Shown: positions 12,100 to 64,000 of the stretch, one piece after another
How the letters are laid out: every line of letters begins with the position of its first letter
Numbering within the stretch: the stretch's first letter is position 1
NCBI GenBank assembly: GCA_947184155.2
Contig: CAMXCT020000127.1
Coordinates: 236,945-300,944 of the forward strand
Source of the DNA: Cladocopium goreaui
Taxonomy: Eukaryota; Sar; Dinophyceae; Suessiales; Symbiodiniaceae
Reading direction: 5' to 3'
Length of the DNA stretch: 64,000 nucleotides
Notes under the pieces: model-generated
Told to the model about the DNA's origin: nothing
The model's input: the letters and a program-made list of their open reading frames with translations, nothing else
Databases searched by the model: none
Program-made: the position numbers and the translations under genes

Positions 12100-12124
12100 A
12101 GTCTCTTGATCGGCTGAAACCATA

Positions 12125-13004: not shown

Positions 13005-13036
13005 CCCACCCAAGAGTCTTTGAACCCACCCCTCAG

Positions 13037-29447: not shown

Positions 29448-29829
29448 ACTTTTCTTTTTAAATGAGACACAATGCATGGGCGGGAGAAGCAGTTGATAAT
29501 TTACTCTTTCAGGCCTGCAGTGCAAGTCTCTTGCAGTGCCGTTGCCCAAACTCCCCGGCCAGATCCTCAGCGACCGCTGCAGGGCTCAACAAACATTCTG
29601 CTGAATTTCTGTGTGTCAGCCAACAAACCCTCGATTTTTTTCCACCAGCAAATTAGGGATGTAGACCAGGAAGAACTAGACCCATATCTTTGACGTTCAA
29701 CTCCTGTAAACTTACCTGCTTACCTCGAAATCGTTCTTAGAGATGTTTGCCCCGAAGGGTCTGGGCATGTCTAGGAGATGTTTCCGTGAACTTTTCCACC
29801 CCCTTGACCAGCTTCACATTGCATCAGTC

Positions 29830-43573: not shown

Positions 43574-43589
43574 CATAGATTTCTACATA

Positions 43590-43598
43590 TATATATGA

Positions 43599-43629
<31 letters not shown>

Positions 43630-43632
43630 GTG
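43590..43632. repeat. (TA)n microsatellite
   Basis: A short run of TATATATATGATATATATA type immediately follows the end of FolD copy 2. Other TA runs occur at 35656-35675, 40194-40207 and 46580-46600. Confidence 0.85.
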
Positions 43633-45452
43633 GCAGGGACCTTTTGGTATAATGCGACCGTCCTCCTTGGTTGTAGCTCTTTTCCTGTGGCGCTTCTGTC
43701 TGCACTGCCGCTTCTGCGGTGGCTTCGAAGCCTTTCACCTACTTTTGGCTGGAGCCAATTGCTCGCAACCTAGCTAACTACCGCTTACTCTCTACAAATT
43801 TGAGTGAGAGCTTTACAAGTCTGCGCTGCTCCTTTGCAGTCATGTGGTAGATCCAATTTTTTTCATTCCAATAGCCATACCCTAGGGCCCTAGGGGGTTC
43901 TTGAATGACTCCAAGAAGGGTTTTACCCAAGAATACATGTCAATAGAGAATTCTGATATATTCTGATTGTTGGGTTTACCTCATGACGCCCTGTTGGCAA
44001 AACTAGTCAGAGTATTCGCACTCTTTCCACTGACGCACCGCCGATGCAGCAGCTGGTGCTGCTTTGAAGCGAGCCCAGACTGTGCCATCATCGTCCTTGT
44101 GCAGAGCCGCAAGATCTCCTCAAATGGCAACTTTGGTCAACCCTCTGAACAGTAGTGTATTGGATTGTCACCCAAAAGTTCGTGTTACGAAAAGAAATGC
44201 AAATCAGTTGATAGAATTGATGTTCTTGGGTAACCTTATGATAAGTGATATCTGCGTGATTGAGAAAACCAGAACTTCTAGTTTATCTTCTGCTGGTTGC
44301 TTGGAATGATTTGCAGCTGTTCTATAGAGAAAACGATTTACTACCTCGGGTATTTACATACATGGAATATCACTCGCTGTACGTGCTGTCGCGGCTTGTG
44401 CATTGGACACGTATAATTGAAAGAATAGAATGCCGATTGCTGAGGGCACTGTGCCGTAAGCTATTTTTCACTACTCCAAAGCAACATCAAGTCACATATT
44501 GACAGACTTAAATCTGTGAATTGTTTCCTTAATTGGTACGAAAAGACGAACCCAACCCCACACATTCAGGATTCAATCTCTCTAAACTATGTTTGCAGTT
44601 TCACCAAGTTGACACCCAGAAAAAACTGAATGAATGCGTGTCTCAAAACCGCAACTTGAAACCGTTGAAAATTACTGTCGCAATCTATAGTTCCAAATCA
44701 GCATCCGATGTATTCTCTTACTTATCGCAAAACAAATCCCAGATTTTTAGCTAAGTTGTATGTATCTAAATTGTCTCCTGCACTATCAAGCCATGACCTT
44801 TACCTTCGCCCCAAACAAATACCATCGCAATATTTCCGGATTGCGGCTTCCATCCCAGTGTCCCATTGCAGAATGAGTGACCATAGAAAAACAGCTTCTG
44901 CTGAATCTCTTCCGCAGGCCCCTGATACCCTTTCACGACGACCCGGCACCGTTCATCCCTCTGACGCCTCGGCCAAGTAGTTTAAGACGATATTTTTACC
45001 TAATATGGAAATCACCTATTGACCATAACCTGGCTCTCTTGCTCAAGGAAAATGAGCTTGAAGTAGCAATGCTCTGCCATAATGTTGCGACACCAATCTT
45101 GACGCAAACCAACACCATCGCTGAAGTAAGCTAAGCCAGCATGTAGTCATTTCGGGATTTCAAACATATGTGATGAATAGTTGCCGATGGAACGCTTATT
45201 TCAAACTATTGTAACACGTTGCATGTGATCAATCGACGAAAATTCAGCGCAAATACAGACAAGAATCTTGCGAGGCCGCTCGTTCCAATCCCTCGAATTT
45301 CGCTTCCATCCGTTGTTTCCATTCCGGGGATTCGATTGCCAGGACGCAGATGAAGCCTGCCAAACAAGGGCTTCTCATAGAGATGCAGATGAACCCTGCC
45401 AAACAATGATTACGATGCTTCCAAGCCAATCCTCACAGCCCGTAGGCCACTA
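43633..45452. other. No recognised gene
   Basis: Forward frames at 44533-44754 and 44877-45134 are ordinary in composition but carry no known motif. A short direct repeat (CCTGCCAAACAA/GGGCTTCTC versus CCTGCCAAACAATGATTAC, near 45357 and 45393) precedes the trinucleotide array. Confidence 0.35.
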
Positions 45453-45672
45453 ATTGACGACGACGACGACGACTACTACTACTACTACTATTACTACTCC
45501 TCCTGCTGCTGCTGCTACTGCTACTACTACTACTGCTGCTGCTACTACTACTACTACTAGTACTAGTACTACTACTACTACTACTACTACTATACTACTA
45601 GTACTAGTACTAGTACTAGTACTACTACTACTAGTACTACTACTATACTACTAGTACTAGTACTAGTACTAG

Positions 45673-45704
<32 letters not shown>

Positions 45705-45832
45705 GTACTAGTACTAGTACTACTACTACTAGTACTACTACTACTACTACCACTACTACTACTACTATTACTACTACTCCTCCTCCTGCTGCTACTGCTA
45801 CTACTACTACGACGACTACTACGACTTCTAGT
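45453..45832. repeat. (CTA/ACT)n trinucleotide array with GTACTAGTAC palindromes
   Basis: About 380 bp of ACTACTACT, GACGAC and CTGCTGCT units are interrupted by repeated CTAGTACTAGTAC blocks that are self-complementary. Both strands are open (poly-Thr, poly-Ser) only because of the triplets. The ends are GC-richer (CTCCTCCTGCTGCT), and the arrangement is roughly mirror-like around the centre. Confidence 0.9.
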
Positions 45833-48665
45833 AGTTTCGCATTTCAAAGCAGACGAGACAAATATAATATTCTCACCACAATGAACGAGTATATAACCCT
45901 ATGCGTACATGGAAGAACATTGTGACACCACTGCACACCAATCAGAACAAGCACCAACCTACATAACTGAATGGTATCTCAATAAGACTTTGCCAGTGGT
46001 TGCTGCTGCCGGCTGCATGCGCTGTTGAATGGTCGGTCCAGTCACAATCGCCTCCTCAGCGTCAAAAATTGTGCGATTCTCTGCAGCCTGGGCGATGATC
46101 GCATTACTTTCTGAACATAGAGTGCAGGCAGTCTAGCTGACCAAAGCCTGCATACGGAGATAATTCTTCAAATCAAATGTCTAGAAGCAGCTGATACAAA
46201 ACTGACACAGGGCAGATGTCTAAATATCGGCCAGCAACCGCACTTTCATCTCTCCGTCCGGCCTGCTGGGTAGATCCGGCCAACGTCGAAAAAGTCGGTG
46301 TAGAAACTGGAGCCTAGTCCAGCCCAGAAAGAAATGTCAAAGGGATATGGAGCTGCCATTGCCACTGCATCCTTCAAACAAACAATCAATATAGGCATCA
46401 TTCAATCAAATAATCAGCTAAGCCATGCAACCTCTATGTTTTCTTCATTTAATTGGCTGCGAGTCACAATTGTGTATGGAACGTTCCGCGGTGTTCTGGA
46501 CGTATGGAACGAAGGGGCTTCGTAACTGGTCTTGTTCCGGACCTTTGGAGTGTGATGAAATATAGGCTTGACAAAAATCTATCTATATATATATATATGT
46601 ATGTATACTGTATATATGCAACGTAAATTATATACATCTCAAGCATATGCATGTTGAAGCTACTCACGCTGGCTGCCGCTCATTTTCACTTCTCATCTGC
46701 ACGACATCCTTGTTGTATACCTGTTCATCGCAGGTTTGTCTTGCATGGCTGGTGCTCTTGCACTAGATAGGACAGAACCGGTACCCAGCGTCACCCACTA
46801 GCTGTCCACTCAGCTTCAGACCTGTCACGCAGGTCGCATGGTGCACCTCCTACTCTTCAAACTCAGACGTCCCTATGGGGTAGATTGTGTCACCACGTAG
46901 CAAGACTCTAGGCTCCCATTCCCCACGCGCAAAGGATGGCTTAGGAGCAGTCTATGTGAGAACCTGTCATTGGTTCACCCGGGAGTGGGGCAGAGGTGGT
47001 ACATGGGCGGTCCAAGTCTGGAACGGGTATATATGGAACGGTATGGAACGGGGTCTGGAATGAAACGGCCCAGCCCAGCACAGCCCTGCCACCACGCAGC
47101 ACATCTTTATCAAAATTGGCAGTTTGGAACGAGAGTAGCGCAGCAAGCAATTCTTAGACTGCCAGCTGGCAACAGTCAAGTGCATCTCTACCATCAAACA
47201 TCACAGCTGTGCCACAGCGGGCAGCAACTGTAAGTGGTGCAGGCGCAAACCTGCCACAGGTTGAGAGGGAGGGAGGGTTACAGGCAATCCATTCTTAGAC
47301 CGCCAGCCGACAACAGCCAAGCACATCCCTACCATCACACAACAAACGCTGCAGGCACAGACTTGCCAACACAATCACAGGGCTTGGGCATAGTAAAAGT
47401 ATTCTTGCATGTACTCACTCATGTATGTATGTGCGCTCAAGTATGCGCGTACAAATGTAAAATCAGACTGCACATATTCAGAGAGAGAGAGAGTGAGAGA
47501 GAGAGAGAGATACATATAATATTATATATATCATAACGTATGGATCAGAGGTATGGAACGGATCCTTCAAGGAGGTATGGAACGGGGGTATCGAACGGGT
47601 GTGGTACCGGAGCTTGTTCCGGACCTCCTATTTTGACTTGCACCTAATTTCAACTCTACGGTCACGACCAAGTGGCCACTGTGACGCTCGAGGGATGCAA
47701 CCACGGCCCAAGATTTTCCGAAAATGGGCCTGGGCGAATTTGCAGGTAGTCGCGAAACAAAACCGACGCGATTGGAATCGTATAGCTCACCATACGAGTT
47801 TGGAAGCCACATCAAAATATTGTCAGCATAGCAATAACAAACTAAACATGACACTTGGATGCAATCACGCCTTCTTCCCAAAATCATACTTTTCAGGTTC
47901 CACTCCCAATCTCTTGAGATGCCATAATTTTTCTTTGCATACAGATTACAGCTACGAAGTCGAGCATCTACCGCAGAATATGAAATCAATAGGGAAATCG
48001 TTTCCAAAGAGTTACGATTTGCTCCGTAAATGATACACCCAAGTCTAACACCCTACGGTTTATCAATTCGGAGTCTATATAATAATATGATGCATTAAAT
48101 TAAATTGATGCGGTGCTCACGTGACGTTGGCATGTTTCCGCTGGCAAGCAACTGGAATGCAGCATGATCCATCCATCGAAGCGCACAGCACCGATAAAAG
48201 CGACTGTGACTGCTCCAGTAGAGCTGCATGTTCGCTCTACTTTCGTTCCCAAGGGCAACATTTTGGCACAGTGCTGCATTTGGAGCAAAAAGCTGCAGGG
48301 CAGCATCAAAAGCGATCATGCACCAAACCCAACCGAAGTCTCATCAGAGAAGGACATGCGTCTAAATACACCTATATCTCATATAGAAATCTGCGCGTTG
48401 CTACGTATATTTATTGGTGGGCCTTTTCGTCTATATATGTGATCGCGCAACTCTGAAGAAGATAGAATCTGGACCATTATTATTTCTACCTAACGGTGTT
48501 TCATTGAAATTGTCATATTTTAGCTGCTTCACGATGATAATTATTTGTAAGGTGGCTTATTGCCTATTTCCCCGACCCTTTTGAATCCTTACAGAAAACA
48601 ACAACAAGAGAAAAGGACACGCATAACAAACAGGGGACTTGATAGACATTAAAAGGTCATAAACT
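45833..48665. other. Repeat-rich intergenic DNA
   Basis: There is no recognised gene. The phrase GTATGGAACG recurs near 46503, 47040 and 47575, twice followed by CTTGTTCCGGACCT (about 46530 and 47613). A 60 bp block around 47145-47205 (CAATTCTTAGACTGCCAGC) recurs at 47286-47345 with substitutions. A GAGAGAGAGA tract lies at 47480-47509. Together these suggest several copies of one unidentified degenerate repeat. Confidence 0.5.
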
Positions 48666-49178
48666 TCACGAAGACAATCTTTTTTGGTGACGTGTTTTTT
48701 CTGTTTTTGGAGGCCAAGGGAAGCATAGAAAGAAAGTGAAAAGCTTATAGGATCCAAGCACGACCGCCTGCCTGTCACGGTTGTTGACTGCGTGATCTCT
48801 TGGAACTCTTTCTCCTTGACATTTCTTTCTCCTTGATGTCCTTGTCTCATAATGCACTTTGTCCTGACCCGGTTTGCGCGTGTCATCTCTGAATCTTGAA
48901 AACCCTTCCTGTTGACAGCTCTGCAGCCCGAGACCTGACACACTCTTCTCTCCTGACAATATTTTTTCTGATGTCATCGCCGTCTCTTGACACCGATGTC
49001 TTTTCAGCCCCTTTCCGTCGACGTATCTTTCTCTTGGCATCCATATCTTTTGGCACATTTTGTTTTGCGACCTTTTTCTCTTAACATTTCCAGCAAGGAC
49101 ATGTGCACCTATGCCGGGCATATAGGTGATACCAAGAGTGAAAGAGTTGGCAAATGGGATGAAAGGTCCATGCCACAA
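48666..49178 (-). CDS. Hypothetical low-complexity reverse-strand frame downstream of the giant gene
   Basis: A 170-codon frame is rich in Lys, Arg, Glu and Cys-Gln pairs, built from loosely repeated units (CQKIWMPRERYVDG, RCQETAMTSEKILSGEKS, KCQGERVPRDH). The DNA shows degenerate repeats of about 20-40 bp around TCTCTTGACATC. It could be a 3' exon or untranslated part of the adjacent transposon, or just a decayed minisatellite. No known domain. Confidence 0.25.
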   Translation of the reverse strand: MWHGPFIPFANSFTLGITYMPGIGAHVLAGNVKRKRSQNKMCQKIWMPRERYVDGKGLKRHRCQETAMTSEKILSGEKSVSGLGLQSCQQEGFSRFRDDTRKPGQDKVHYETRTSRRKKCQGERVPRDHAVNNRDRQAVVLGSYKLFTFFLCFPWPPKTEKTRHQKRLSS

Positions 49179-49381
49179 GAAAGCAGCTCAATGATTCCAT
49201 CTGCCCGTTGAGTGCCCAGCCTTGGCCATGAAGAGGGAACAAGATTCAAGGCAAAATGTCCTGCAGCAACTTGGGAAAATTCAATCATCACTCACAAACA
49301 CCTTTCTTTCAACAACTCGGTGCAGAAGCTTCACTCCGCAGGTGCTCGACCTTTTTCCCTTCTGTGCCAATCTATCTCACG

Positions 49382-50491
49382 TCAGACCTTCTTCCGGCCC
49401 ATGATTCTACATTTCGAAACTCTCTTTCTGTTGAAAGGAGTTCGATGCCCTCCGGTTGGCGGCTGCTTCGCAGCAGGCCGCTTTGTCGCAGGCCTCTTCA
49501 AGGCACTGCCCTTCACAAGGGAAGCTTCATACTTTCTGCGCCTGTTCAGAGGTAAGTCTGCTTTACAGCTTCCGGCAGCAAACCTAGTCCAACACCTCGG
49601 CTTCCTCCAAGGTGAAGACACAGCAGATCTAGCCAGGACGCAGTTGGATGAAACTTGTCGCAGGCATGGTCTGTACATGGCTACATGGTGAGAAACAAGT
49701 TTTGCTAGATGCAACACCTGCAGTTTGATTTGCAAGGTGCTCTTGTGCATCTGCTGCGTTTCTCGGAACCATGCCCGGACCTCTGCGTGCAGTGCCTCGT
49801 TTGAGGTTGTCCCTGCAGGCAAAAGCACAACCTTATCCGCCGGCAGCGAATGCCGCGCGCGGATGTTGTTAAAGTACCACTGCAATCTGGCCGGTGCACA
49901 TGCAGTATACAAGATCTGTCGCCCGGAACGATTCGGGCCGGGAATGGTTTTGTCCACATCATCAGTGTAACAGCAGGCCAGGGCTGCTATGGCCTCAATC
50001 ACATCTCTTTCACATTTCCAAGGCTTTGTTGGATCAAGGGCGGCAAGAATGCTTTCAGCCCGGGCCTTGGCCATTCCACCGCTTAAAATCTGCTCCCTGC
50101 GGGCTTTTGTCACATGATCAAAGTCAACAGCCATGATTCCGTTAAAGGGCCTGGACTTGTAGCCGTTGGGACTGACAAAGTCCACAGCATTGAATTTGTT
50201 CATGATTGCCCTCAATGTGGTCGAAGCCTTGGTCCTCCTTCTGTATGTGCCATATTCAAAGGTCATGCAGAGGTGGACCGGGTCAAGGCACAGGAGCTCT
50301 AGTTTTGGCATGACATTCCTCAGAGTGGACAATAAGCGCGCCGAAGGATCATCAGTGAACACAACTCTAGTCTGGGCCAAGCCATTCAGAGGGAGAGAGC
50401 TGGCCAAATGCTCGGCAATGGCAGAAGCGTCCTCGCTTGGCACCGGAGCCATCAGTAGAACACATCCCGTGCGGCCTCGAGCTGTCAGTAC
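49382..50491 (-). CDS. Giant transposon gene, exon 5: DDE transposase core and basic tail
   Basis: The exon begins VLTARGRTGCVLLMAPVPSE, a beta-rich segment after the first catalytic strand. RVVFTDDPSARLLSTL carries the likely second aspartate and is followed by LELLCLDPVHLCMTFEYG, a pattern seen in MULE- and KDZ-like DDE transposases. TSNEALHAEVRAWFRE offers the third acidic residue (Glu). The last 60 residues are Lys/Arg/Pro-rich (KRPATKRPAAKQPPTGGHR), likely nuclear-targeting or DNA-binding. I cannot decide the transposase superfamily by eye. Forward-strand frames over this region are shadows. Confidence 0.6.
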   Translation of the reverse strand, partial: VLTARGRTGCVLLMAPVPSEDASAIAEHLASSLPLNGLAQTRVVFTDDPSARLLSTLRNVMPKLELLCLDPVHLCMTFEYGTYRRRTKASTTLRAIMNKFNAVDFVSPNGYKSRPFNGIMAVDFDHVTKARREQILSGGMAKARAESILAALDPTKPWKCERDVIEAIAALACCYTDDVDKTIPGPNRSGRQILYTACAPARLQWYFNNIRARHSLPADKVVLLPAGTTSNEALHAEVRAWFRETQQMHKSTLQIKLQVLHLAKLVSHHVAMYRPCLRQVSSNCVLARSAVSSPWRKPRCWTRFAAGSCKADLPLNRRRKYEASLVKGSALKRPATKRPAAKQPPTGGHRTPFNRKRVSKCRIMGRKKV

Positions 50492-50549
50492 CTGAGACAA
50501 AGCACAACTCAGAGCTTACTTACAAGGATTCGAAGCAGTTAAATGCTAC

Positions 50550-50900
50550 GTTAACTCTGTTTCGGCTTTTATTCAGATAACATTTTTCAATATGTCGGTC
50601 AGGTGCCTTTCGAAACGAATCCTTCCCCTTGAAAACAGCTTCCGCTTGCTCCTTCGCACCGGCTCTGAGAGAAGCTTGGCCGAGTATAGACAGACAGCAC
50701 TTCAAGGTGGCATCCACACTGATGAACTCAAATTCGGTGTGGTCCACCGCTTCTGCCATGGCAGCATCGAATATCTTCTGAACAGCTTCAGAGTAAAAGA
50801 TATCTTCCACCAATGGCCACCAATGTCTGGCATGCTGGGGCAGGAGGCTCGTAAGCTTCGAGCCGCCAGCTGATAAGCGCAATGCCAAGCGACTAGCTGC
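50550..50900 (-). CDS. Giant transposon gene, exon 4: start of DDE transposase
   Basis: After CTCTAAG the exon reads AASRLALRLSAGG and then HWWPLVEDIFYSEAVQKIFD, a helical lead-in common before transposase cores. FEFISVDATLKCCLSILGQA follows, where Asp in SVDAT is the likely first catalytic residue at the end of the first beta strand. The exon ends NRVN, and a 58 bp GT-AG intron restores the frame into VLTARGRTG. If not spliced there, the frame would stop at 50520. Confidence 0.6.
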
Positions 50901-51067
50901 CTTAGAGAGCTGATGCAATCATGCAACCACAGACCAGGGCTGCGGCCAAAAGACGAACAAGAGGGTCAAGATAGTTAAACTATAGTAACTAGAACAGACA
51001 CACAAGATCACATACAGATGCGACGTCAGACAGGCCTTGAAACTGTGAGCCTAGATGCTTGCTTTAC

Positions 51068-52732
51068 CTTCGCATTGCAGACCATCATTTCTTGGTAAAG
51101 CAAATCAGCAAATCCGTGGGTGTAGTACAAGTTCTTGGCCCGGCGATATGGGCTGTCCTTATCAGCGACAACCTCATAACTTTTGTATACTGGGCCCTTT
51201 TCAGTGAGAACTAAGCGCAGGTGGCGGTCGAGGTGGTTGATGGATGCATCCGCTTGCGAGACTGATGCGCGAAGCATGGCAGCGCTTCTTCTCAGGTACC
51301 GGGCAGCTGGTGGGACATTCCGAAGCTGGTCATCATCGAATAAAGCTTGGATGATTCGGATCTGCTTTGTTCCACTGCAGGAAAACTGGCGTTTGGCTGT
51401 GTGATATCGTTGGACATGCTCCGCCACGCGCCCGGGACGACTAAAGTGCCGGAACGGACACAATGGACAACGATGAAAACGCCCCTCATGCACAGTCTCT
51501 GTGCTGTCACGGATTGCATCTCTTTCCTGCTTCAATAAAGCCAAAAGGTCGTCCCCGACACGCACAGCTGCTTCGGAGTGACTGTCAGCTTGCGCTGCTC
51601 CAGCCATGCCTTCATCGTCTGAACCTTCGACCAAGCCTTCACAGACGCAAAGCTGATCCAAATTCGCGCCTCCTATTAAGTCCACTCCTGCTTGAAGTTC
51701 TAAGAGGATGCCATTGTCTTTCTGTCGCTTTGCGCCTTCATCTTCATCTTGCAGCCAAAATGTCACTAGAGACGCAGAATCTATTGATTCCTCAGCACAG
51801 CTGTTTAGAAGATCTTTTCCGATGTCATAGACTGCATCCCCAATCAAGACTTTGCAGGCCTCCTCTGCACATAGGCAGCCAAGAACGAGCGGCGAGCCTG
51901 TGTGCTCACAATGAAGCAAATATTTTCCCGGCTTTTGAACACAGCAGCCTAGTTCTGGCACGCAAGAAAGTTTCGCGGCATTGAAGCATTCTTTGTACGA
52001 ACGGTGCCTTTGCTCTTGTTCAAGCTCTGACGAGTCTTTCTCAAGCCATGCTTCCAACTCAGACCACAGATCCGTAACGTAGGCCAAACACGCCAGAATC
52101 CCGTTTGCTGGACTAGTAAGCCTGGTTGACAGGGTCTTGGTTTCATTGAATCGCCCTTCCTTCTTCAATAGGTCTAAGAAAAAGTAATGCTTCTTTTCCT
52201 TCACGCTAACCTGGAAGCCGGTCTCCTTGGCAATCCATTCGGATGATGACTGACAAATTGACTCGATGTCGAGGGAACGACCCTGGATCCTGCAGCCGTC
52301 AAAATGTAGAGACAAGTGTGAGAGATCCAGTGTCATGAGGTAATCTACCCAGCTCGAGAGCACTAAATCCTCCACAGCCTGATACAAGTAAGCTATGGCG
52401 GAATTCTCCGGGACTGGCTTGTTTTCTTTGCAACAGTAGGCATAAAGATCTGGAAGGTTTGACACAGCCAAGCATTTCATCCAAATGCAAGCTTTCCGAA
52501 GCCCAAGAATCACATCATGTCCAGAGAGGTTGGTAGGAGGGCTCCCGCCATTGATAACTTGTAGCAATACTTGCTTTCCCTGTGTCTTTGACAGGCCTAA
52601 CTCCGCAATGACATCGCCACGCGCCTTGGCACATCGCTCGAGCATCCTGGCGGCCTCTTCGGGCATGGGCAGCGTAGCCTGCAGTTTCTGAACGAGTTGC
52701 CACATCAGTGTGAAATACGCGTTCTCGATATC
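51068..52732 (-). CDS. Giant transposon gene, exon 3: family-A/TV-Pol-like DNA polymerase palm and C2H2 finger
   Basis: The exon starts DIENAYFTLMWQLVQ, a candidate motif A with the first metal-binding aspartate. About 50 residues on, GKQVLLQVINGGSPP resembles the family-A motif B (Lys...YG). Some 80 residues later LSLHFDGCRI resembles motif C (HD-type). This order and the D5-like helicase in front suggest the TV-Pol family, polymerases described in transposons and viruses as relatives of DNA polymerase A and T7 RNA polymerase. The link is from motif memory, not a search. Past an acidic linker comes a classic C2H2 finger, CPLCPFRHFSRPGRVAEHVQRYH split as C-x2-C-x13-H-x4-H, which may begin the transposase part as a DNA-binding head. 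The GT-AG intron at 51067 joins it to exon 4. Confidence 0.6.
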
Positions 52733-52817
52733 CTTAGTTGACTGGGATGTGAACAAAACATGCATGGGAAGTACGTGCAGAAGATTCCCGAGCAGTAAGA
52801 ACAACAACCTTTCCTTA

Positions 52818-54377
52818 CCCCAATGCATCAGGCCATGAATCTAAATCTGTACTGTTAGGACAAAGAAATTTCAGCAGTTTCCGAGAGCATTGCTGTGCTC
52901 CTGCGTCACAAGCATATCTTCTGCCTCTGATGAGATTAGGGATGGTTTGCTGGTACTTCATCTTGCTTTCTCGCCATTGCTGCTTGCCAATGCATCTGTG
53001 ACCGCTTGGCTGCCCATCACGGTCAGCAGATGCCAGAAAAGTACCAAGCAGTTTTTCGCTGGCATCCAATTTACATCTTTTTTCTACATCTCTGTCATAT
53101 CGGAGTTTGTTCTCGGAACTGAGCTTTCCGGATCCTCGCTTCTTCAAGGCAGCGGCGCGCGCATCAAAAAGCGCAATCATGGTAACAACATTGTGTTCTC
53201 TTGCAAGGTGCCTGGACGCAAACTCCCGCAAGCCACTTACATGCCACAGCTCGGGGTACACCATTGGCACAATCTCCCCCTGTAGGTCTATGACACTTTG
53301 TAAGCAGCTGGAACCCAAGACACATGGAACAATGAGCCGCTTGCCTTTGCCCCGCGATCGACAAACTTCCTTCGCCCAGGAGTGCACTTCGAGCTGCTTT
53401 ACCAGGCTTTCCCGATCAAAATTGGGTGCGTTTGCTGGCAAAGATAATCTTTTGAAGTGTTCCAAGGAAATGGCAAAAAGGTTCTTGCTCAGGCACTCCT
53501 CCATGACACGGCGTACCACTGCCTCCAGTTGCTTTTGCAAAGATTCAGCTTCCTCCTGGGTGAGTTGATCGTCCACTGGGCCAAGTCCAGGAGCCAATGC
53601 AGTGTCGCGCCGCCGCGGCTGCAGGCCACAAGCCATTCGCATCTTATCCTCTGTTAGGCCTTGATCCCCACCAAGATTGCAATACGACTCGATCATGTGG
53701 AGACATGCCTTTCGCGAATATGTGTGCTCAAATGCATGCTGCAATTGCACACTACTAGCAATGGCTGGGCCGGAAACGAGAAAGTCCTTCAAAGTAGGAT
53801 CTTTTGGGAAGTATCCATCCTCCGCTGCATCTGGGTAATGCTCTTCCAAGAATTGGGGGCATACAAAGCGGGCATGGGGACGCCAGAGAAAGCTGCGCCG
53901 CAGGATCGAAGGGAAGTTGTGCTCGGAAACGCCTTTGAACAACATCAAACGGTTCACCTCCATCCGTTTCCAGCCAATGAGTTCAATCATGCGCGTTACG
54001 TACCCGTATGGCCGCCTGCCAGCCATTCCATCAGCACTCATTGTTTTCTTGTAAAGGTCTTCACGCATGCGTCGAGAAGTTTCTGGTGCCTCCTGTGCTG
54101 TCAAAATAAAACAGCCTGCAAATTGCTCTATCTGTTTCCGAAGTTCTTGCTCGTCATACCAGATGTTGGGATCAATGAAGGCATGATTGTGGCCATAAAC
54201 GGCATTCAGGTGGGAGCTATAGAGAGACTGCCCAACACCACCCGGGCTCTCACCTATAAAACATCGGTCAATATTTTCGCCTCTTTTGGCAAGTGCCTGA
54301 GCAGCTTGGCAGCATAAAAACACGTCAAAGTTTCGCCAGAAGGTCTCTTGGAAAAACTTCTCCAAGCGAGCGCTTGC
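52818..54377 (-). CDS. Giant transposon gene, exon 2: D5-like SF3 helicase
   Basis: The exon begins after CTAAG with ASARLEKFFQ. A P-loop follows at once: CFIGESPGGVGQSLYSSHL. The spacing is that of SF3 Walker A (G-x4-G-K-S/T), but lysine is replaced by glutamine. Further on are FIDPNIWYDEQELRKQIE, FAGCFILTAQEAPE (Walker B/B' and sensor-like) and KKTMSADGMAGRRPYG, the layout of D5-type primase-helicases. SF3 helicases unwind DNA during replication of viruses and self-synthesising transposons. The C-terminal 300 residues contain cysteine/histidine and basic segments I cannot name. The exon ends at GALG just before a stop. The in-frame junction to exon 3 uses a boundary ambiguous by one G. The Walker A substitution means ATPase activity should not be assumed. 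Confidence 0.65.
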
Positions 54378-54465
54378 CTTAGAAGTTTATGCGGACACCA
54401 ACGGCAAAATGCACAGCAAAAGCTTTTAACGACACAAACAAAAAGAATCAATCCAGACAAGTTGC

Positions 54466-57400
54466 GGCCTGAAGAACTGGATCAGGCAAGGCAGGTTTCA
54501 AGGCATGCGGGATCAATGTGTATATGTTGTTCGCATGGCTGGGCTGAACGAACATGATGTTGCCTTCCTGTGAGTCATAGACGACACAAAGATCCTTGTA
54601 CGCGCAGCCTGCTCGTTTGTTGCTAGGTGTTTCGCACCACTCTATCATAAGACTATAAATCTTATCATCCATGACTTCCTTTTGCAAAGTGACACTCATT
54701 TTGCTTAGAGCAGTCGCAATGCTTTGGGCCCATCCGCCCGCATTAGCAATTCCGATGCCATCAGCTTGCTCATCGCCATCTTCGTCAAACTGCTGGAGCC
54801 TGCGCGCACGTTGCACCTGTTTCATGAAAATTGCAGCATCTATCCAGCTGTCAAGCATTGCTTTGATGTTTCCACCTCTCTCTGTCTCCATGCTGTCCAC
54901 AGCGTCGACTATGCTGGGAGTTGTTCGCTCCACACCACCACCGAGGCACCGAAACAAGCCTTCCAGCTGAAGTATGAACTCCTTCACTCGGGCCACTGTT
55001 TGCTCTGGAGGACTGCCGCGAAAGACTTGAAACGCGCCGCAATCATGATACAAAAAGCATTGCCCGTTGTGAACCCGAAGGTATCGGCCCCCTTCCATCA
55101 GCCAAAGCAGATAGATATGCTCTCGGAGGTATGCATCGCAGAGTCTCATGTGAGGCAATCTGCAAGCACATGCCACCACACGGACCAGCTGCTCAGGCCA
55201 CTCTGGCCTCATACTCCGGATCTGTGAGATTATGCGACTGCTCTGATGAAGCAGGGAATGGTACTGCTCAGGCTCCTTGACCAGTGCAGCTTCCAACGAT
55301 TTCCTGGCGGTGGTTCGCATGTTGAAAAACTCTCCCTGAAATTTCGGCATGGACTGGGTGGCTCCAGGTAGCAAGCGGCGCTTCTTGCATCGCCGCAAAG
55401 TTTCGTCATCTTCTTCTGGGCGAGGGATATCTTCGGCAGCTTGACTGGCAGGACAATGAGCATCTTGAGGTGCCTCTGCTTCTTCCGGCTCTAACATCTC
55501 CTGTGCCACTAGGGCGTCCAGCTCGGCTTCCATCTCTCCCACCAGATGTGGATCGCAGGTGGATCCCCCGCGGACATCGTGTCCACGTGCAATATCCTTC
55601 CAGATAGTCATCATGGCATCCACCTCCGTTTCAAGACGCGGCACGTGATCAACGAAAGGCCGCATTTGCTGGTCTGGATGTGTGCAGACCACCAGCATGA
55701 GTGACACCTCAAAGCTATAATACTTTTCGATGATGTACCTGTAGATATTCAGTTGGAGACGATAATGCCAACCAGCGCAATCCGGAAAATGAGCCAAAGG
55801 AGGGAGCATTTTGGAGGGAGAAGAAAATTTGGACGCTAGGTCTGACGTTCGTTTCCAGTCAATCAATGCTAATTGTCCAGTTGGGTTTATAGCAGTGAGA
55901 TCGATCGACCCAGCTATGTTCTCTTCCTCACCAAAAATAACCCATTCCGTGCGGAAGGCGCGCCACCCTTGCATGTCTTGTAAGAAGGTTTCAAGCATCG
56001 AGAATTCTGGACTTGTTTTTGGCACCACATATCCATTCACATGCGCTTCAAACCAAAAATGCATGTGGGTGCCTCGAAGAGCAGCATCAATTCGGTTGGC
56101 TTCCCACATGCGCTTGATTTCATGCGGGCCAAATACCAGACTCTGGACAATCTCTGGAAAGTTCGTCCGCAGGCCCTGGAGCCGGTTGGAGATCCATGTG
56201 TCATTGCGGGGGGAGTCCAGGAGAGCAAGCACAAGGTCTGCATCAACTTGGCGGACGCGCTTCAATACAGTCTCTCCTAAGAATGGTCGCAAATAGCCTG
56301 CGCGAGGCCATCTGTCACCTGCCATCATCTTGGAAATTGCTTCGTCGGCATCGAATGGTCGTGCGAAGGCATGGATCAACCCAGTCACAGATCCATTGGT
56401 CTGCTTGCCACGGATGTAATACACGTGGCCTTCAGACTCGAACCGAACGTGACGGTCTCTGTCATGGGGGTGAAGCCATGCCAGAGTTGTGATGTCTACG
56501 CAGGGAGCAAAATGTTCGTGACGATAGGGAACCATAGCATCCACGCTGTCTCCCCGCAAGGGCAACTCCATTCCTCCATGACTTTGCGTCCAGTGAGTGA
56601 GCTTCTGCATTTTGCGACTGCGAGCCCTTTCTTTGTTGTTGCAAAGGTGAACATATGCAGCTGGGTCCGTCAATGCGCCGCCTAGGCAATCGCCAAAATG
56701 TGACCCCAAAGCTGCGGAAAGCAGCAGAACTGATGATGGATGCACCTTGGACTTGGTTCTTGGCTTGCTTTGGCATGTTTGCAAGAACCGTTGCAACAGG
56801 ACGTGGCGATAAAAGACGCTTGTACCCATGGAAGTCACTTTCTTGTGGACAGTTTGGCCATATGGCCTTGCCAGAGTGGAGAAGAAGAGCACGGCGCTTG
56901 ATAGCTGTCGCTTGCGAACCTTTTTGCTAGATGATGTCTTCGCTGTGCTCAAAACATCTAGTAGGGAAAGGTCTTGAATAATCTCTGGCCAAAACCATGT
57001 AGTCAGTGCAGCCTCCAGATTGGACAGCTCCCCAAGCTGGAGCAACTGTATGAAAGTTTTTGCTGCGAGAAGCTGCACCTTCCACTCCTCAAAGTGATGC
57101 GAAACATCAAATGGAACTGGCAAAACCCAAAACAAGTGTGGATATTTGCCCAGAGTGGATGAAAGCGGCTCGATGTGCATATAAAAAAGCTTGAGCTGGA
57201 GCCACATTCGCGGGCGGTCTGCAGGGGCAGCTGGCTTGCGAAAGATGTACTGGTGCAGTAAGAGAGCAGGGCTTCCACCGAGGCAATCCCGTAAGGTCCG
57301 GCACAGCAGCCGCAGCTGGCCACACTGCACATATAACTTTAAAGCCCGCATATTCAGACGCAAAAGGCAAGGATATGACAATGTCGACCAACAACTGTCC

Positions 57401-59932
57401 ATGAGTGCTGCTCTGACGTTGGCGCCGCACCACCATGAAAGTGGCGGATCGTTGTGTGCATCGGGCAGCAAGGGATCGGCCCCCGCGGAGAGCAGCTGCT
57501 GGACGAGAGCGACGCTGTCCGTCACAGCAGCAAAATGCAAAGGGGTTGCGCCCTGGGAGTCTCTGGCATGCACGTTGGCTCCATGGTCCATTAAGACGTG
57601 CAATGTCATTGGCGAGTTTGCCAGGACCCCCAAGTGCAGGGCCGTACGCCCGTCGCTGGTGGCGACATTGGGATTTGCAAAGCCAGCCAGAAGCAGATGC
57701 AGCGAATAGAAATGGCCACGAGATGCTGCAACATGAGTGACAGGCTCGGCGCGCCAGCGCCCCATCCATTGGCAATTAGGGTCTTGCCCGGCTTCCAGAA
57801 TCTCGATCACTGTGTCATGCTGTTGTTCCTGGATAGCATTGACCAAATCTATTGTGCGATTGGTGGTTGTGGGTGCTAGAACCACGTGCATGACTCGAGG
57901 TGACCCAAGCGCTGGCCAAGTTCCTCCCACTGGAACTGGCTGACCCTCCACAAGGAGACGAACTGCAAAAGGAAGATGTCCTAGGTGAAGAGCCACACCT
58001 TGCTTTAAGGACATGACTATAGACTCTTCGGAGGCTGGCAGGACGCAAATCTCACTCCCTGTGTATGCCATAACAAAGGACACATGGTCAAACGGCAGGT
58101 CTCCACCGCCAAGCACATCTTCCACATCCCAGTACCTTTGCTGTTGCGACACAGATCTACACACTGCCCACAACCTTCTCCCAGAGCAATACGAAAGTAT
58201 GTTTGGCAGCTGTCGGATGATCCAATCCGTAGGCGTGGCGCGAGCAGCGCATTGGTGGATGCACATCGCCGCCATGAGGCCTGCTCCGGCAGAGTAAAAG
58301 GGTGCCTGGCCATCGCTATTGCAAAGGAGAGGATCTGCTCCAGCTGACAGAAGACAGGCCGAAAACACAACGTCTTGGTAAACAACTGCCAGGTGCAAGG
58401 GGCTGTCCCCATTGCTGTTTTGCAAGTCGGGATCTGCCCCCCATTGCAATAAAACTGACACAATCTCTTCTTGGTCGTGCGCAACAGCTGCATGCAAGGC
58501 GCTGCGACGGTCGTCGGTCAGCACATTTGGATTTGCAAACCCCTCTAGCAGCAAGCGCACGCTCGCAATGGAGCTGGTGTCGGTAGCGTACAATAGACCA
58601 TGATGAAAGCGTTGGTCTGCCGCATCCCACAACCATCCATTTGGATCTTGCCCCAATTCAAGGATGTGGGTCAAAGCTTCGACATCATCATCCACTATAG
58701 CTTGCAACAAGTCAGGAGAATGCTCATCTGTTTTCTGCTTCAGAACGAGAAGCATGCCATACGGCTTGCCCAGGGTGGACCAGGTAAGATGGTTCGAAGC
58801 GCAGCGGCCATCCACCAACAATGCCACTCCAAATGGCGGATGTCGCAAGTGCGTGCCGACCTGCTGCTTCATCCACATGACCGTAGAGTCATCTGTAACA
58901 TCCAGGCGCAGCACCTCTTCTCCTGTGCAAGCAAAGGCAATACTGATGCTTCCACCTCGCGCATCCAGGCCAAGTTTTGTGTTTCGAAAGGTTGATGACA
59001 CCTGCCATAGAGGGGCAATATGGTCGCCACAATATGCAGCAATATCGCCAATGCAAAGCAATAGGATTGCATGAAAATTTGAGCTATCGCCTCCAAAGAT
59101 TGCACGAAATTTCTGTCGCTGCTGGTGCATGACCCTTTCCCACACTCTCTTGGACATAGCATGGTCGCAAGGGTTGGGAAGGGCATAGTAATCCTGAGGA
59201 TCTTGCTGCATATGTGTCATGAAAGTGCGTAGCAGTGCAATGTGGATGCGCATCCTTTTGGAAATCCGGGCCACAAGTTCGTCGCCATCTGTACTGTCTA
59301 TCCCAGCTGCCGTGCGAAGAAGAGACAAGGCAGTGCGCCTCTCTGCAACCTGTGCATACCATGCCGTGTCGGTGCAAGGGCTAAACGGTGAAGGAACCGT
59401 TTCAAAAAGTGATGGCATATGCGCCAACAAGGCTTTGTAGTCACAGAGCAGTCCCTCGAAAATGGTGATTCGGCAGCGAATAGCCATGAGAGACAAGTCA
59501 TGAACGGGAGCGTGTGAGCCGTGTGAGCTTGTCGGGCTCGATGAAAGGTCGCTACCGGAGAATTCGCTGTCTACGAAAGACGGTAGCTTTGGGAAGATGG
59601 TTGAGGCAGGCGATGAGCCTCCTCTGCAATCAAATGATTCTAATTTGATGGCTTTTCCTGCGCCTCCTACTCGGGCCACTGGGCAAATGCAAAATGCGGA
59701 CAGCTGACAGGTGTTCAGCTGCCAATGTGTCCCTTGCAGCCACCAAGGTTGAGGGTTATGTGGCTGGAAGCACAGATCGGCTTCGTTCCAGGTGTGGGTG
59801 CGTCTTCCGAAATTTACTTCCCACTTGCCCTCTACGCACCTTGCAGCAATGAAGTGGGACCGGGAATGAAGGATGTAGATGCCAGGGCCGACTTGCGGCA
59901 AGTGTGTAGCAGGCACGCTCTTGACACATTGC
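54466..59932 (-). CDS. Giant transposon gene, exon 1: ubiquitin-like/ankyrin repeats and PD-(D/E)XK nuclease
   Basis: Residues are numbered from the codon at 59916; an acceptor-like CTAAG places the exon start at 59932. Around residues 320-395 and 610-690 are two similar ubiquitin-like segments (MKQQVGTHLRHPPFGVALL and LKQGVALHLGHLPFAVRLL). Each is followed by ankyrin repeats (400-545 and 690-820: SALHAAVAHDQEEIVSVLL, TALHLGVLANSPMTLHVLM, TPLHFAAV). A nuclease domain spans about 1160-1420: SVTGLIHAFARPFDADEA, AGSIDL (Asp1339), LIDWKR (Asp1353, Lys1355) and QLNIY (Gln1388-Tyr1392), the G-x2-D, D-x-K and Q-x3-Y pattern of Cas4/RecB-like enzymes. Residues 1520-1815 (RYLRVHNGQCFLYHD and after) look like the helical region that precedes D5-type helicases. 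It continues into exon 2 by a GC-AG intron at 54465. If unspliced it would end at TGA 54448-54450. Confidence 0.78.
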
Positions 59933-60031
59933 CTTAGTTCTCATTGTAGAAACCATTGCAACATATGGACCTGAAAGATGCTGACATGGTTCCAGCTATC
60001 ATCTGCAATGTCCTTTTGTTGCCGTTTCGTT

Positions 60032-60277
60032 TCATCCATGGCTACTTAAGTCTGACATTCCGAAACACATCGCAGCAGTACGGGCGAGACGCTGCCATGG
60101 CTGCAAGAAGCGATTTCCATCTGCTATTGCCCAGAAGGGCCCGTCACCAGTGTAAGGTACCTTGAAGCCATGAGCTCGGAGAGCGTCGACGAGACAAACA
60201 TCTTTGAAGCAATCATCGCAACGACTCCTCAGGTGAAAGCCAGGGTCAAAGGACATTCTTTTGCAGTCAGTTCGCAC
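60032..60277 (-). CDS. Candidate upstream exon of the giant gene
   Basis: The reverse frame reads CDDCFKDVCLVDALRAHGFK and then PYTGDGPFWAIADGNRFLQ, a cysteine-rich, protein-like segment just upstream of the acceptor at 59932 and on the same strand. It may provide the true N-terminus, since exon 1 begins without a convincing start codon. The donor and phase could not be settled, and no family is recognised. Confidence 0.35.
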   Translation of the reverse strand: MRTDCKRMSFDPGFHLRSRCDDCFKDVCLVDALRAHGFKVPYTGDGPFWAIADGNRFLQPWQRLARTAAMCFGMSDLSSHG

Positions 60278-62424
60278 TTGCTATCACAACATCAACATAC
60301 AGCACTCACAGATAAGTGACTGCGCCAGCGTCTTGTCACTCCCAGTGGCGACAGAATTGCGCCGGCGAAGTCCATGGCCTGTAGTCCAGCAGTTTCCGCT
60401 TAGGTGCCAAAAAAGAAACCAAGCAAACAGGAGTAATGCTAGCAGGCAAGCAAGCGTGACCTTGCCTTTCACTGGTTCCTCATGCAAACCTGAGCAGCAT
60501 TAACTTCAGAGAAGGCCAGCCAGACTCAAAAGCATCACTCTAACAAGACATATATAGCAGATTCCAATCGCATGTGCGGGTGCAACACCCCACAAACATA
60601 GATGAATTGGACGATACTAGACATGTTTGGCTCCTCTAGTAGTCCTCTAGATAACCTGGTAGCCTCAAGCATCGATTCGCCTCTCAAAAAAACTTTCATT
60701 TTCTCACTCACTCTCTAAAAGTGTGCAAGCTTAGGAACCTTGGCAAGTGGATAGGTTTGTCGCCTCTGCTTCCGAAAGGATGCTGAGCACAAGCTTGTCC
60801 ATGCGCCGCTCACGACGCTCTTTCCGCAGAATCGCGTTGATGTGAACATTGGACCAATACACATCCTCGTATCGTCGGCGGCGCTGGCGCCTCGATAAGC
60901 CAGGCCTTAGCATAACAACTGCAAACCACATATACCTTGCTCTGGGCCTGTTCATCGGCTCCTTCCCTTGATAACGAAACACTGACCTTATGGTCAAGAC
61001 GCTGTTTGTAGCTTGCACGTGCCTTGGCTTGTTCAGACCTCGGCTTCCGCTTGGGGGCACGAGCTTCAGGCTGTAAGGAGGAGCACTGTTTTGATTATGT
61101 ACCAGCTGCCGAGATGCCGAAGTTGTGCAAGCAGCTGCCTCACCAGTATACCAGAAGCAACACATGGGTCATTCAGTCATGACCGTTTTTTCACAAGACA
61201 CTCATTGCTTGCAGAAAAGTGACAACCGATCACAATCTGACTGCTCGTGTCTCCTCGGACTTTGTTGGCTTAGAGACACTTCAACGAACAAGGCTGCACG
61301 AGTGAAAGCTGAAGAAGAGCAATTATATAATGAGCCAAGGGACATGGGCACTTGAGGGCTGACATCTCTGTCTGATACCGACTGCCTTATCAGCTTTGTA
61401 TAATCATTAAGTTGAAGCTGTTTGAAGACTAACCGTAGAAGCCAGCTGCAATCTCAGGACAAGACCCTTTCCTATAATCCTTACAATGTAGCATACAGAC
61501 ACTACAGCCTTGAATGGCTATATTAGCCCCAGCCAAGCCGTAGCGAGTCATGTTCATGAATTTTTGCTGCTGGAGGTATGATTCAGTTGAGGCGCTCGGA
61601 GATGTTGCTTGGTGTCTCGGCACTGCCATCTGACTGTATACGCTGCGACCTCAGGGCACCATCTGTCAGTAGGCAACTAGTCAGGATCGGTCAGGCAGCA
61701 ACAACATATACGAGCTGCAAGTGGCAATGCGTTTCTTGCAAACGAGACTCTGGCTGCGAAACCTTCGGTAGAACAAAGGCCGCACCACACGACGCCAGCA
61801 GTGAGAAGACGAGGGTGGCATCAAAGCTGTTGAAGATATCCTTGCCACAATCTTTCGGACAAGGCCATCACCTGAGCAGGGCTTGGCTCAATACGTCTTG
61901 GACACGTCTATATTCTTAGAAAATACAACTGCCACTAAGCGGTCAAACCATGTTATTGTAAGGCCAGCGACACCAAGTGGTAGCCTGCCAGAGGCCAGTG
62001 GTTGCACTCTTTTCGCACGCGATGCTGGATACCAAGCGCTTGCCAAGGCAAAATCGCACCCCTCATCAGCGAGCGCAAAGCACTTCATTGGCAAAGACAT
62101 AACACCGTTTTGTAGCGCATGCCAACTTTGCATCCAAGGCGCAGCGTGTTTGCTCGCCGCACGCGTGATCGCACTGGTGCTCCAATCTCTGCTGGATAGG
62201 TTCAATGAAATATCTGCCTTAATGAACCACATCTCATTCCATCATGCATTGCAAGTTGAGACGCACTTCTAACCCTTACAAGCCAAATTGCTAACCTCAA
62301 GAGATCTTTGCCTAACTCCAACAAGGTAGATTTTGCTAACCACAAAAAATGTCTTGACCCTTATATTTTCACTAACCTCAATATTGTGTATTTCACTAAC
62401 CACAATATTGTGCATTTCACTAAC
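60278..62424. other. Region upstream of the giant gene, two unassigned reverse frames
   Basis: A reverse frame at 61165-60731 is strongly basic (LSRRQRRRRYEDVYWSNVHI, KERRERRMDKLVLSILSEAE) and may be an exon of an unknown protein. Another at 62232-61888 (HALQNGVMSLPMKCFALADE) overlaps an equally plausible forward frame. At 62329-62425 a short phrase around CACTAACC(A/T)CAATATTGTG recurs three times just before the minisatellite. The element boundary, if upstream, should fall in this stretch. Confidence 0.35.
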
Positions 62425-62425
62425 C

Positions 62426-64000
62426 TCTAAGACTCCATAGAGAGAAAAAGTCTCCATAGAGAGAGAAAAAGTCTCCATAAATAGAGAAAAAGTCTCCATA
62501 GAGAAGAGTCCCCGTAAAGTCCCCGTAAAGTTCCCGTAAAGTCCCCGTAAAGAGGAAAAGTCTCCATAGAGAGAGAAAAAGTCTCCGTAGAGAAGAGTCC
62601 CCGTAAAGTCCCCGTAAAGAGGAAAAGTCTCCATAGAGAGAGAAAAAGTCTCCATAGAGAGAGAAAAAGTCTCCATAAATAGAGAAAAAGTCTCCATAGA
62701 GAAGAGTCCCCGTAAAGTCCCCGTAAAGAGGAAAAGTCTCCATAGAGAGAGAAAAAGTCTCCATAGAGAGAGAAAAAATCTCCATAGAGAAGAGTCTCCG
62801 TAAAGTCCCCGTAAAGTCCCCGTAAAGAGGAAAAGTCTCCATAGAGAGAGAAAAAGTCTCCATAGAGAAGAGTCCCCGTAAAGTCTCCGTAAAGTTCCCG
62901 TAAAGTCCCCGTAAAGAGGAAAAGTCTCCATAGAGAGAGAAAAACTCTCCATAGAGACGAGTTCCCGTAAAGTCCCCGTAAAGTCCCCGTAAAGAGGAAA
63001 AGTCTCCATAGAGAGAGAAAAAGTTGTTCAAGAGAGAGAAAAAGTCTCCATGAGAAGGAGGTCCCCGTAAAGTCTCCATAGAGAGAGGAAAAACTTCGCC
63101 ATAGAGAGAGAAAAAGTTCTCCTTAGAGAGAGAAAAGTCTCCATAGAGAAGAGTTCCCCGTGGTAAGTCAAAGGTAAGAGGACAAAGTCTCCATAGAGAG
63201 AAGAAAAAGTCTCCATAGAGAAGAGTCACGTAAAGTCTCCTTAAAAGTCCCGTAAAGTCCCCGTTAAGAGAAAAGTATCCATAGAGAGAGAAAAAAGTCT
63301 CCATAGAGAAGAGTTCCCGTAAAGTCCCCGTAAAGTCCCCGTAAAGAGGAAAAGTCTCCATAGAGAGAGAAAAAGTCTCCATAGAGAAGAGTCCCCGTAA
63401 AGACCCCGTAAGGTCCCCGTAAAGAGGAAAAAGTCTCCATAGAGAGAGAAAAAGTCTCCATAGAGAGAGAAAAGGTCTCCATAGAGAAGAGTCCCCGTAA
63501 AGTCCCCGTAAAGAGGAAAAGTCTCCATAGAGAGAGAAAAAGTCTCCATAGAGAGAGAAAAGGTCTCCATAGAGAAGAGTCCCCGTAAAGTCCCCGTAAA
63601 GTCCCCGTAAAGAGGAAAAGTTTCCATAGAGCGAGAAAAAGTCTCCATAGAGAAGAGTTCCCGTAAAGTCCCCGTAAAGAGGAAAAGTCAGAGAAAAAGT
63701 CTCCATAGAGAGAGAGAGTCCCCGTAAAGTCCCCGTAGAGTCCCCGTAAAGAGGAAAAGTCTCCATAGAGAGAGAAAAAGTCTCCATAGAGAAGAGTTCC
63801 CGTAAAGTCCCCGTAAAGAGGAAAAGTCCATAGAGAGAGAAAAAATATCCATAGAGAAGAGTCCCCGTAAAGTTGCCGTAAAGTCCCCGTAAAGAGGAAA
63901 AGTCTCCATAGAGAGAGAAAAAGTCTCCATAGAGAAGAGTCCCCGTAAAGCCCCCGTAAAGAGGAAAAGTCTCCATAGAGAGAGAAAAAGTCTCCATAGA
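62426..64000. repeat. Long modular minisatellite, runs off the right edge
   Basis: Almost 1.6 kb are built from a few modules in varying order: GTCTCCATAGAGAGAGAAAAA (with short variants), GTCTCCATAGAGAAGA, GTCCCCGTAAA repeated one to four times, and GAGGAAAA. Higher-order units of roughly 70-130 bp (two or three CCATAG modules, then two or three CCCCGTAAA modules) repeat about fifteen times. The reverse strand stays open for 525 codons as METFSLSMETFPLYGDFTGT-like text. No known protein resembles this, and single-base slips at 63020-63260 break the pattern. Treated as non-coding satellite. Confidence 0.9.

Follow-up and report, generated by a model that had tools for sequence, protein, structure and literature searches.

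A single spliced gene of the dinoflagellate Cladocopium goreaui encodes a TV-Pol-like polymerase, an SF3-related domain, a nuclease, a zinc finger and a probable DDE-type transposase domain, and it belongs to a family of many copies that keep the same core order. The gene lies on the reverse strand of the stretch of DNA analysed here (the window), 64,000 nucleotides of contig CAMXCT020000127.1 (assembly GCA_947184155.2, positions 236,945 to 300,944). With a probability of roughly 60%, its product is a polyprotein by which a dinoflagellate mobile element both replicates and integrates, all encoded in a single gene; we infer that this element is mobile. A preliminary description, made from the letters of the window, had proposed such a gene and is partly confirmed as a whole: the gene exists, and the domain guesses mostly hold.

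Relatives and domain order

Three protein searches, each scoring about 8,000 candidates, returned 25, 78 and 44 proteins, 145 distinct proteins in all. These relatives, many of which are partial frames in the database, were all aligned to the window protein, and a region was counted as present at a coverage of at least 50%. Residue counts given below consider only letters that are present and exclude the window protein. Every relative bearing an organism name comes from a dinoflagellate (Symbiodinium species, Polarella glacialis or Prorocentrum cordatum), and the best local identity ranges from 25 to 62% in the first search.

Of the 145 relatives, 34 cover the nuclease region and 96 the SF3 region; 77 cover the polymerase and 60 the DDE region. 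Polymerase and DDE regions occur together in one chain in 22 relatives, and nine chains additionally hold the nuclease and the helicase region. Wherever at least two of the four regions are present (84 relatives), the core order is unchanged (84/84). The search for copies with the same domain order, which had been proposed as a check, was successful, the blocks being joined in gene models of Symbiodinium, Polarella and Prorocentrum. Nine relatives from Symbiodinium sp. CCMP2592 (P0001, P0005, P0007, P0017, P0028, P0057, P0066, P0112 and P0126) are located on contigs of nine different lengths, which points to dispersed copies. The opposite outcome, with the blocks scattered in unrelated genes, was not seen: scans with two short patterns each found no family relative in viral contigs (patterns A1 and A5) or prokaryote genome contigs (A1).

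Some relatives carry further parts. The distant relative P0024 (5,799 residues) shows, by eye, several copies of a protease-like motif before its helicase-polymerase-DDE core. In the Polarella gene models P0011 and P0018, RCC1-like repeats lie past the DDE region, which may mean that the repeats were captured at the C-terminus or that the gene model is fused.

Gene structure

The five reverse-strand blocks of the preliminary description join into 3,383 residues and a stop codon with zero internal stops, and the first block alone is an open frame of 1,830 codons (59940-54448, reverse strand). The blocks were thus rightly taken as open and in frame, but alignment with the relatives places two junctions (2 and 4) differently and adds a first exon that had been overlooked. 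The revised model has six exons and five introns and yields 3,410 residues from ATG to stop:

60096..60256, reverse strand: exon 0, first half of a protease-like domain with the Cys of VCLVDAL; shares motifs with relatives and is joined in frame via a GC-AG intron
54466..59932, reverse strand: exon 1, second half of the N-terminal protease-like domain, ankyrin repeats, PD-(D/E)XK nuclease and start of the SF3 region; supported by open frame, Pfam and homologues
52842..54377, reverse strand: exon 2, SF3 core followed by the first part of TV-Pol; alignment moves the 3' end from 52818
51068..52732, reverse strand: exon 3, TV-Pol core, second protease-like domain and C2H2 finger
50607..50900, reverse strand: exon 4, beginning of the DDE-type domain with its first Asp; alignment moves the 3' end from 50550
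49382..50491, reverse strand: exon 5, remainder of the DDE-type domain, then a basic C-terminus; stop codon at 49382-49384
60095-59933, 54465-54378, 52841-52733, 51067-50901 and 50606-50492, reverse strand: introns of the revised model

The end of exon 2 was moved to 52842 because the eight residues that would follow, DSWPDALG, are absent from all 12 aligned relatives; intron 2 (52841-52733) is then GA-AG, whereas the earlier version was TA-AG. Similarly, exon 4 now ends at 50607, since the next 19 residues are missing from all eight relatives spanning junction 4, and the corrected intron 4 (50606-50492) is GC-AG. Both insertions are peculiar to the window, sit exactly at junctions 2 and 4 and are missing in the relatives, and they are therefore regarded as intronic. 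The start given in the preliminary description lies at a splice acceptor. The upstream exon 0 bears motifs of six relatives, FKDVCLVDxLRAH being common to P0003 and DGPFWA to P0011, P0018, P0022, P0023 and P0024; its ATG (60256) and donor (60095) were chosen by reading frame and phase and not set by alignment.

The introns measure 163, 88, 109, 167 and 115 bases, and each ends in AG before a G. Three are GC-AG, one is GA-AG and one GT-AG, and the phases agree at all five junctions. Non-canonical introns are usual in dinoflagellates; GC-AG or GA-AG introns are not mentioned in the searched text of PMC11453091. The alignments of 29 relatives end at residues 2850-2945 (26 of them at 2890-2910), and those of 28 relatives start at 2880-2957; judged from these ends, the position of intron 3 seems to be common to the relatives. 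Splicing is supported because the relatives run continuously across the junctions and intron 3 is apparently shared.

TV-Pol-like polymerase

52154..52991, reverse strand: TV-Pol/family-A core (RGRRY..GAQ..SR, DIEN, GK..NGG, VED, LHFDG), split by intron 2; identified by hhalign and residues

The proposed TV-Pol-like polymerase is borne out by profile comparison with known TV-Pols. The family alignment of this region (75 sequences) matches four TV-Pols in hhalign at 98.4% and E 6.5e-14 in global mode and at 97.3% and E 2.4e-11 in local mode, and two further polymerase alignments of the family reach 95.4% (E 1.9e-8) and 93.8% (E 1.8e-7). By comparison, the best of 40 column shuffles gives E 0.064 and the reversed profile 0.56. 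A cross-domain control paired 11 query alignments with two comparators: 19 of the 22 pairs have an E of at least 0.27, and the three matching pairs are the SF3 region, alone and with its upstream part, against the SF3 set and the polymerase against the TV-Pols.

Both catalytic Asp residues of the palm are present in the window protein and conserved in the relatives (DIEN, 72/74; LHFDG, 70/72), as is an Arg before motif A (74/74). The fingers carry an Arg (70/74) and a Lys (73/74) that are 15 residues apart and do not form a literal RxxxK; the comparators, by eye, likewise show the Lys without a clear RxxxK. Among these comparators is MAP_030 of phage LMM01, the genome of which is named as a TV-Pol carrier in PMC2579912. 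MAP_030 is annotated as hypothetical and adjoined by two transposase genes. The other three comparators are tblastn relatives of MAP_030 (19-27% identical), and a scan of prokaryote genome contigs found no further TV-Pols.

For a family-B polymerase, there is no Pfam match with raw exons, relatives or consensus, a weak negative because Pfam likewise missed the TV-Pol. A sequence search of PDB found nothing credible for exon 2 or three family profiles. The sub-threshold match of the polymerase consensus to Pfam MSS51_C (E 0.0041) was taken as chance.

SF3-related region

53589..54564, reverse strand: region related to SF3 (D5/P4-type) helicases, split by intron 1 (54465-54378); identified by hhalign
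54225..54242, reverse strand: Walker-A-like motif GGVGQS with Gln for Lys; residue counts in relatives

Of the SF3 helicase proposed for this part of the protein, the relationship stands by profile comparison, but the Walker A lysine is missing. The family alignment (89 sequences) was compared by hhalign with the SF3 regions of eight phage proteins (L022-L029), namely P4 alpha and seven proteins from the 45 matches listed out of 574 records. It matches at 85.1% (E 6.9e-7) globally and 82.6% (E 9.7e-6) locally, with Walker A, the sensor Asn and an Arg in register with the phage set; 40 column shuffles give E 0.049 at best, and the reversed profile gives 0.36. No Pfam or PDB match was obtained with the exon 2 sequence, the family profile or the consensus. 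A D5N-like label, assigned by eye to residues 1540-1715 upstream of the SF3 region, is unsupported (E 0.82 against the phage SF3 set).

Conservation of the region is high for a Glu (87/87), the sensor Asn (84/86) and the Arg (86/87). The position of the Walker A lysine is occupied by Gln in 77 of 84 relatives, by Leu in three, Thr in two, and Met and Gly in one each, and by Lys in none. Since the motif does not read GK(S/T), the region is named SF3-related and is not assigned as an SF3 helicase. A ring of such subunits may use ATP in an unusual manner or serve mainly as a loading scaffold, as this residue is glutamine across the family.

DDE-type region

49754..50879, reverse strand: DDE-type core with D (SVDAT), D (FTDDPS), DxxH (LDPVHL) and E (TSNEALH), split by intron 4; identified by residue conservation

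The C-terminal domain is a probable DDE transposase. Its motif residues are near-invariant, namely the first Asp (47/49), the second Asp (49/49), the Asp (49/49) and His (49/50) of DxxH, and the Glu (47/48), and so this part of the earlier proposal stands at the motif level, but profile searches for known families all failed. The Asp of DxxH follows the second Asp by 23 residues, and a long spacer precedes the Glu. With single members, the best Pfam matches are 0.0097 for a TNP-like RNase H (1 of 31) and 0.07 for ISL3 (2 of 31); the consensus has none. The hhalign comparison with ISL3 gives E 0.22 locally, which lies inside the shuffled null (best 0.062); the alignment covers the D-to-DxxH motif, which is no more than suggestive. 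Because no profile of a known family matches, the domain is called DDE-like and is not placed in a transposase family.

Nuclease and N-terminal modules

55522..56496, reverse strand: PD-(D/E)XK nuclease (GSID ... IDWK ... RLQLN); identified by phrog_298, PDDEXK_1 on the consensus, and core residues
57322..58974, reverse strand: two blocks of ankyrin repeats, with a segment formerly read as ubiquitin-like before each; Pfam Ank_2 1.1e-29, Ank 2e-26

The window protein alone has no Pfam nuclease match, and the nuclease is recognised from its relatives and the family consensus. The exonuclease profile phrog_298 matches 13 of 15 relatives (E up to 1; best 5.3e-22), and the consensus matches Pfam PDDEXK_1 with E 4.3e-6 (27.3 bits, above the cut-off of 22). 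Single relatives match PDDEXK_1 weakly in two of 15 cases (best 0.0054). Among the consensus sequences, the nuclease alone has Pfam matches above the cut-off. The core residues are invariant where present (D 30/30, D 31/31, K 31/31).

With the raw exons, only the ankyrin repeats exceed the Pfam cut-off (Ank_2 1.1e-29, Ank 2e-26), as expected from the earlier proposal; the ubiquitin-like domains proposed next to them are not confirmed, neither segment having a Pfam match. The N-terminal layout varies among the relatives. In P0003 and P0015, the ankyrin repeats come after a segment that in the window stands behind them, and in P0004 they come after the nuclease. The ankyrin module looks captured because it is covered in only seven of 145 relatives and its placement among the N-terminal neighbours varies.

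The N-terminal protease-like pattern is split over exon 0 (Cys) and exon 1 (His), and both residues are kept. In a two-sequence alignment, its exon-1 half matches the second protease-like domain weakly (43%, E 0.00025). As a separate observation, residues 712-908 of relative P0088 are ubiquitin repeats (Pfam 1.7e-20) downstream of its polymerase and protease-like regions (end 658), an arrangement that would fit a protease cutting at ubiquitin-like joints.

Second protease-like domain and zinc finger

51689..52126, reverse strand: second protease-like domain (GNCIP ... GxYLLH ... PHCVA), between polymerase and finger; residue counts
51401..51469, reverse strand: C2H2 zinc finger CPLCPF...H....H; ligand conservation, Pfam below cut-off

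By its motif, the second protease-like domain appears papain-like; its consensus has no Pfam match. Cys and His are found in 39 of 42 and 38 of 43 relatives, respectively, and are replaced by Gly and Leu in the window copy. The C2H2 finger foreseen earlier keeps near-invariant ligands (C 56/56, C 56/56, H 58/58, H 58/59), but its Pfam score is below the cut-off.

Other features of the window

Split direct repeats occupy positions 5451-13423, where 5451-5944 corresponds to 12511-13004 (98%) and 12125-12512 to 13037-13423 (98%). The frames that they enclose, 6141-7196 and 8956-12099, are by eye tyrosine-recombinase-like and reverse-transcriptase-like, and the whole looks like a recent DIRS/Ngaro-type retrotransposon. 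A long tandem array with units of 11, 21-22 and about 67 bases and longer runs from 62439 to the window end at 64000 and yields open frames of repetitive sequence. At 29808-30776, tandem repeats of about 63-84 bases keep a 322-codon frame open, with STVSDFGTVEQMKGAWSKAPPP-like units. Further repeats are a perfect inverted repeat of 39 bases with a spacer of 58 bases (43237-43372) and an exact direct repeat of 183 bases (647-829 and 1124-1306).

Proposed mode of action and competing explanations

As parts of a polyprotein, the domains would cover a whole transposition cycle. The working parts of the polyprotein may be cut out by the protease-like domain at the N-terminus, which has its Cys in exon 0 and its His in exon 1. 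The SF3-like ring and the TV-Pol could carry out priming and synthesis of a DNA copy of the element; the role of TV-Pol as a primase-polymerase is a prediction of PMC2579912. The zinc finger might bind the element ends, which the DDE domain would cut and join into the genome, and the nuclease may process ends or intermediates. Whether this family constitutes a new dinoflagellate superfamily of self-replicating DNA transposons is a more tentative matter, for which the odds are slightly below even. In such a superfamily, one gene would encode the whole cycle as a polyprotein with TV-Pol, a C/D(2)H-type DDE domain, a nuclease and an SF3-type ring minus the Walker A lysine, and it would recruit host modules such as ankyrin at the N-terminus.

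Several observations weigh against a mobile element of this kind. The comparison of 40000-49400 with 59900-62430 revealed no terminal inverted repeats beyond chance: the best pair has 12 bases, and the best pairs of 20 shuffles have 11-15. Self-comparison found no second copy within the window. The transposase is undetected by Pfam, NCBIfam, a PDB profile and hhalign to ISL3, IS5, IS4 and Tn3, and the Walker A change speaks against an ordinary helicase, or ordinary ATP hydrolysis at this site. The dinoflagellate range rests on the named relatives; many entries are without an organism name, and EukProt entries show gene names only. Clusters of up to 115 member sequences (P0067) speak for many copies, but such counts may contain repeated assemblies. 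Finally, the comparator MAP_030 was picked by its motifs from three translated genes, a choice which favours resemblance, but by far less than E 1e-11.

The main competing explanation is a multicopy host gene family that was domesticated from a mobile element for a nuclear function, for example DNA replication or repair, and spread by gene duplication instead of by its own transposase. That no terminal repeats were found agrees with it, as do the ankyrin module in some copies and the F-box or RCC1 domains in the gene models of three relatives (P0025; P0011 and P0018). Open frames and conserved residues fit host selection equally well. For the same reason, the earlier conclusion that the absence of stops suggests recent activity is weak; the second protease-like domain, moreover, is without its Cys and His here. 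Retroposition and tandem gene duplication are reported for dinoflagellates (PMC11453091), but the introns speak against mRNA retroposition of the window copy. The relatives are also widely divergent (25-62% best local identity), the enzymes are such as a selfish replicon carries, and a host gene that does not transpose would not have to preserve the near-invariant DDE-type residues. Domestication is considered unlikely, though less so than the explanations that follow.

Less probable still is an integrated small DNA virus, related to polinton-like viruses or virophages, of which the gene would be the replication module and the capsid genes would lie elsewhere or be lost. TVpol-S3H fusions are described for virophages (PMC3671162) and PolA-SF3H fusions for polinton-like viruses, which are also reported to be integrated in a dinoflagellate (PMC12721341). 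However, the two pattern scans found no relative in viral contigs, the domain order is opposite in that SF3 precedes TV-Pol, and the fusion with a DDE-like domain is fixed. Positions 1-49000 contain only three frames that run for 260 codons or more between stops, none of them capsid-like by eye, no capsid profile having been run.

A chimera of adjacent genes, with exons from at least two separate transcripts, is very improbable: most database relatives are partial frames and dinoflagellate gene models can be wrong, but polymerase and DDE regions share one protein in the same order in 22 of 145 relatives, the many frames ending near one position fit a common intron 3, and the phases match at five of five model junctions.

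Comparison with known systems

The proposed single-gene mobile element resembles several known systems in part. Like the TV-Pol mobile elements of Iyer, Abhiman and Aravind (PMC2579912), it has a TV-Pol core, here matched by profile. According to that source, TV-Pols are found together with D5-like helicases, and RNase H-fold transposases lie in some of their neighbourhoods, in bacteria. A D5 helicase fused to TV-Pol is described there as C-terminal, whereas the SF3-related domain of the window is N-terminal, and the window differs further from the elements described there by having everything in one eukaryotic spliced gene and perhaps by fingers without a literal RxxxK.

The TVpol-S3H proteins of the virophages Sputnik and OLV (PMC3671162) and the PolA-SF3H proteins of polinton-like viruses (PMC12721341) likewise fuse a polymerase of the same family to SF3 and are associated with eukaryotes. 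In the virophages, as described, TVpol is N-terminal, whereas in the window it comes after the SF3 region. In contrast to both kinds of fusion, the window chain adds nuclease, protease-like, C2H2 and DDE-type domains, and no capsid genes were noticed in the window, though no profile search for them was made.

With Polintons/Mavericks, the gene has in common an element-encoded polymerase and a DDE-type integrase in a eukaryote. Polintons, as reviewed in PMC6431247, carry a protein-primed family-B polymerase, a retroviral-like integrase and capsid genes, distributed over several genes. In the window, by contrast, a single gene holds both a family-A TV-Pol and a DDE candidate of the D(x2)H type. 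Identity with Polintons was rejected on the polymerase family, which is TV-Pol by profile and not family B.

The SF3 primase-helicases of the phage P4 alpha type share the SF3 core with the sensor Asn and Arg in register; unlike them, the window protein has Gln for the Walker A lysine, and its upstream residues 1540-1715 are unmatched (E 0.82). Mutator, hAT, P and ISL3 are among the DDE transposases that carry a C/D(2)H motif. Their pattern recurs in the window as an Asp, then DxxH, a long spacer and a Glu, and the weak ISL3 alignment covers the motif, but there is no significant profile match with any family tested.

No description of the family was found among the titles and abstract openings listed from open-licence literature, Repbase and most subscription journals lying outside this search. 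Apparently new are the reversed domain order, the nuclease fusion, the union with a DDE-type domain in one spliced gene and the Walker A change. The claim made in 2008 that no TV-Pol is fused to a nuclease (PMC2579912) would have to be amended for the nuclease fusion of the window. The occurrence of the Lys-to-Gln change throughout a family with an otherwise conserved SF3-type domain raises a testable question on ring ATPases. The review of giant transposons (PMC6431247) foresees new elements in which an integrase goes together with a primase and a nucleic-acid-primed polymerase, and the window gene is a candidate for this type. If mobile, it would represent a self-synthesising transposon with a family-A TV-Pol and, unlike Polintons, its whole enzymology in one gene, and it could help to explain the swelling of dinoflagellate genomes.

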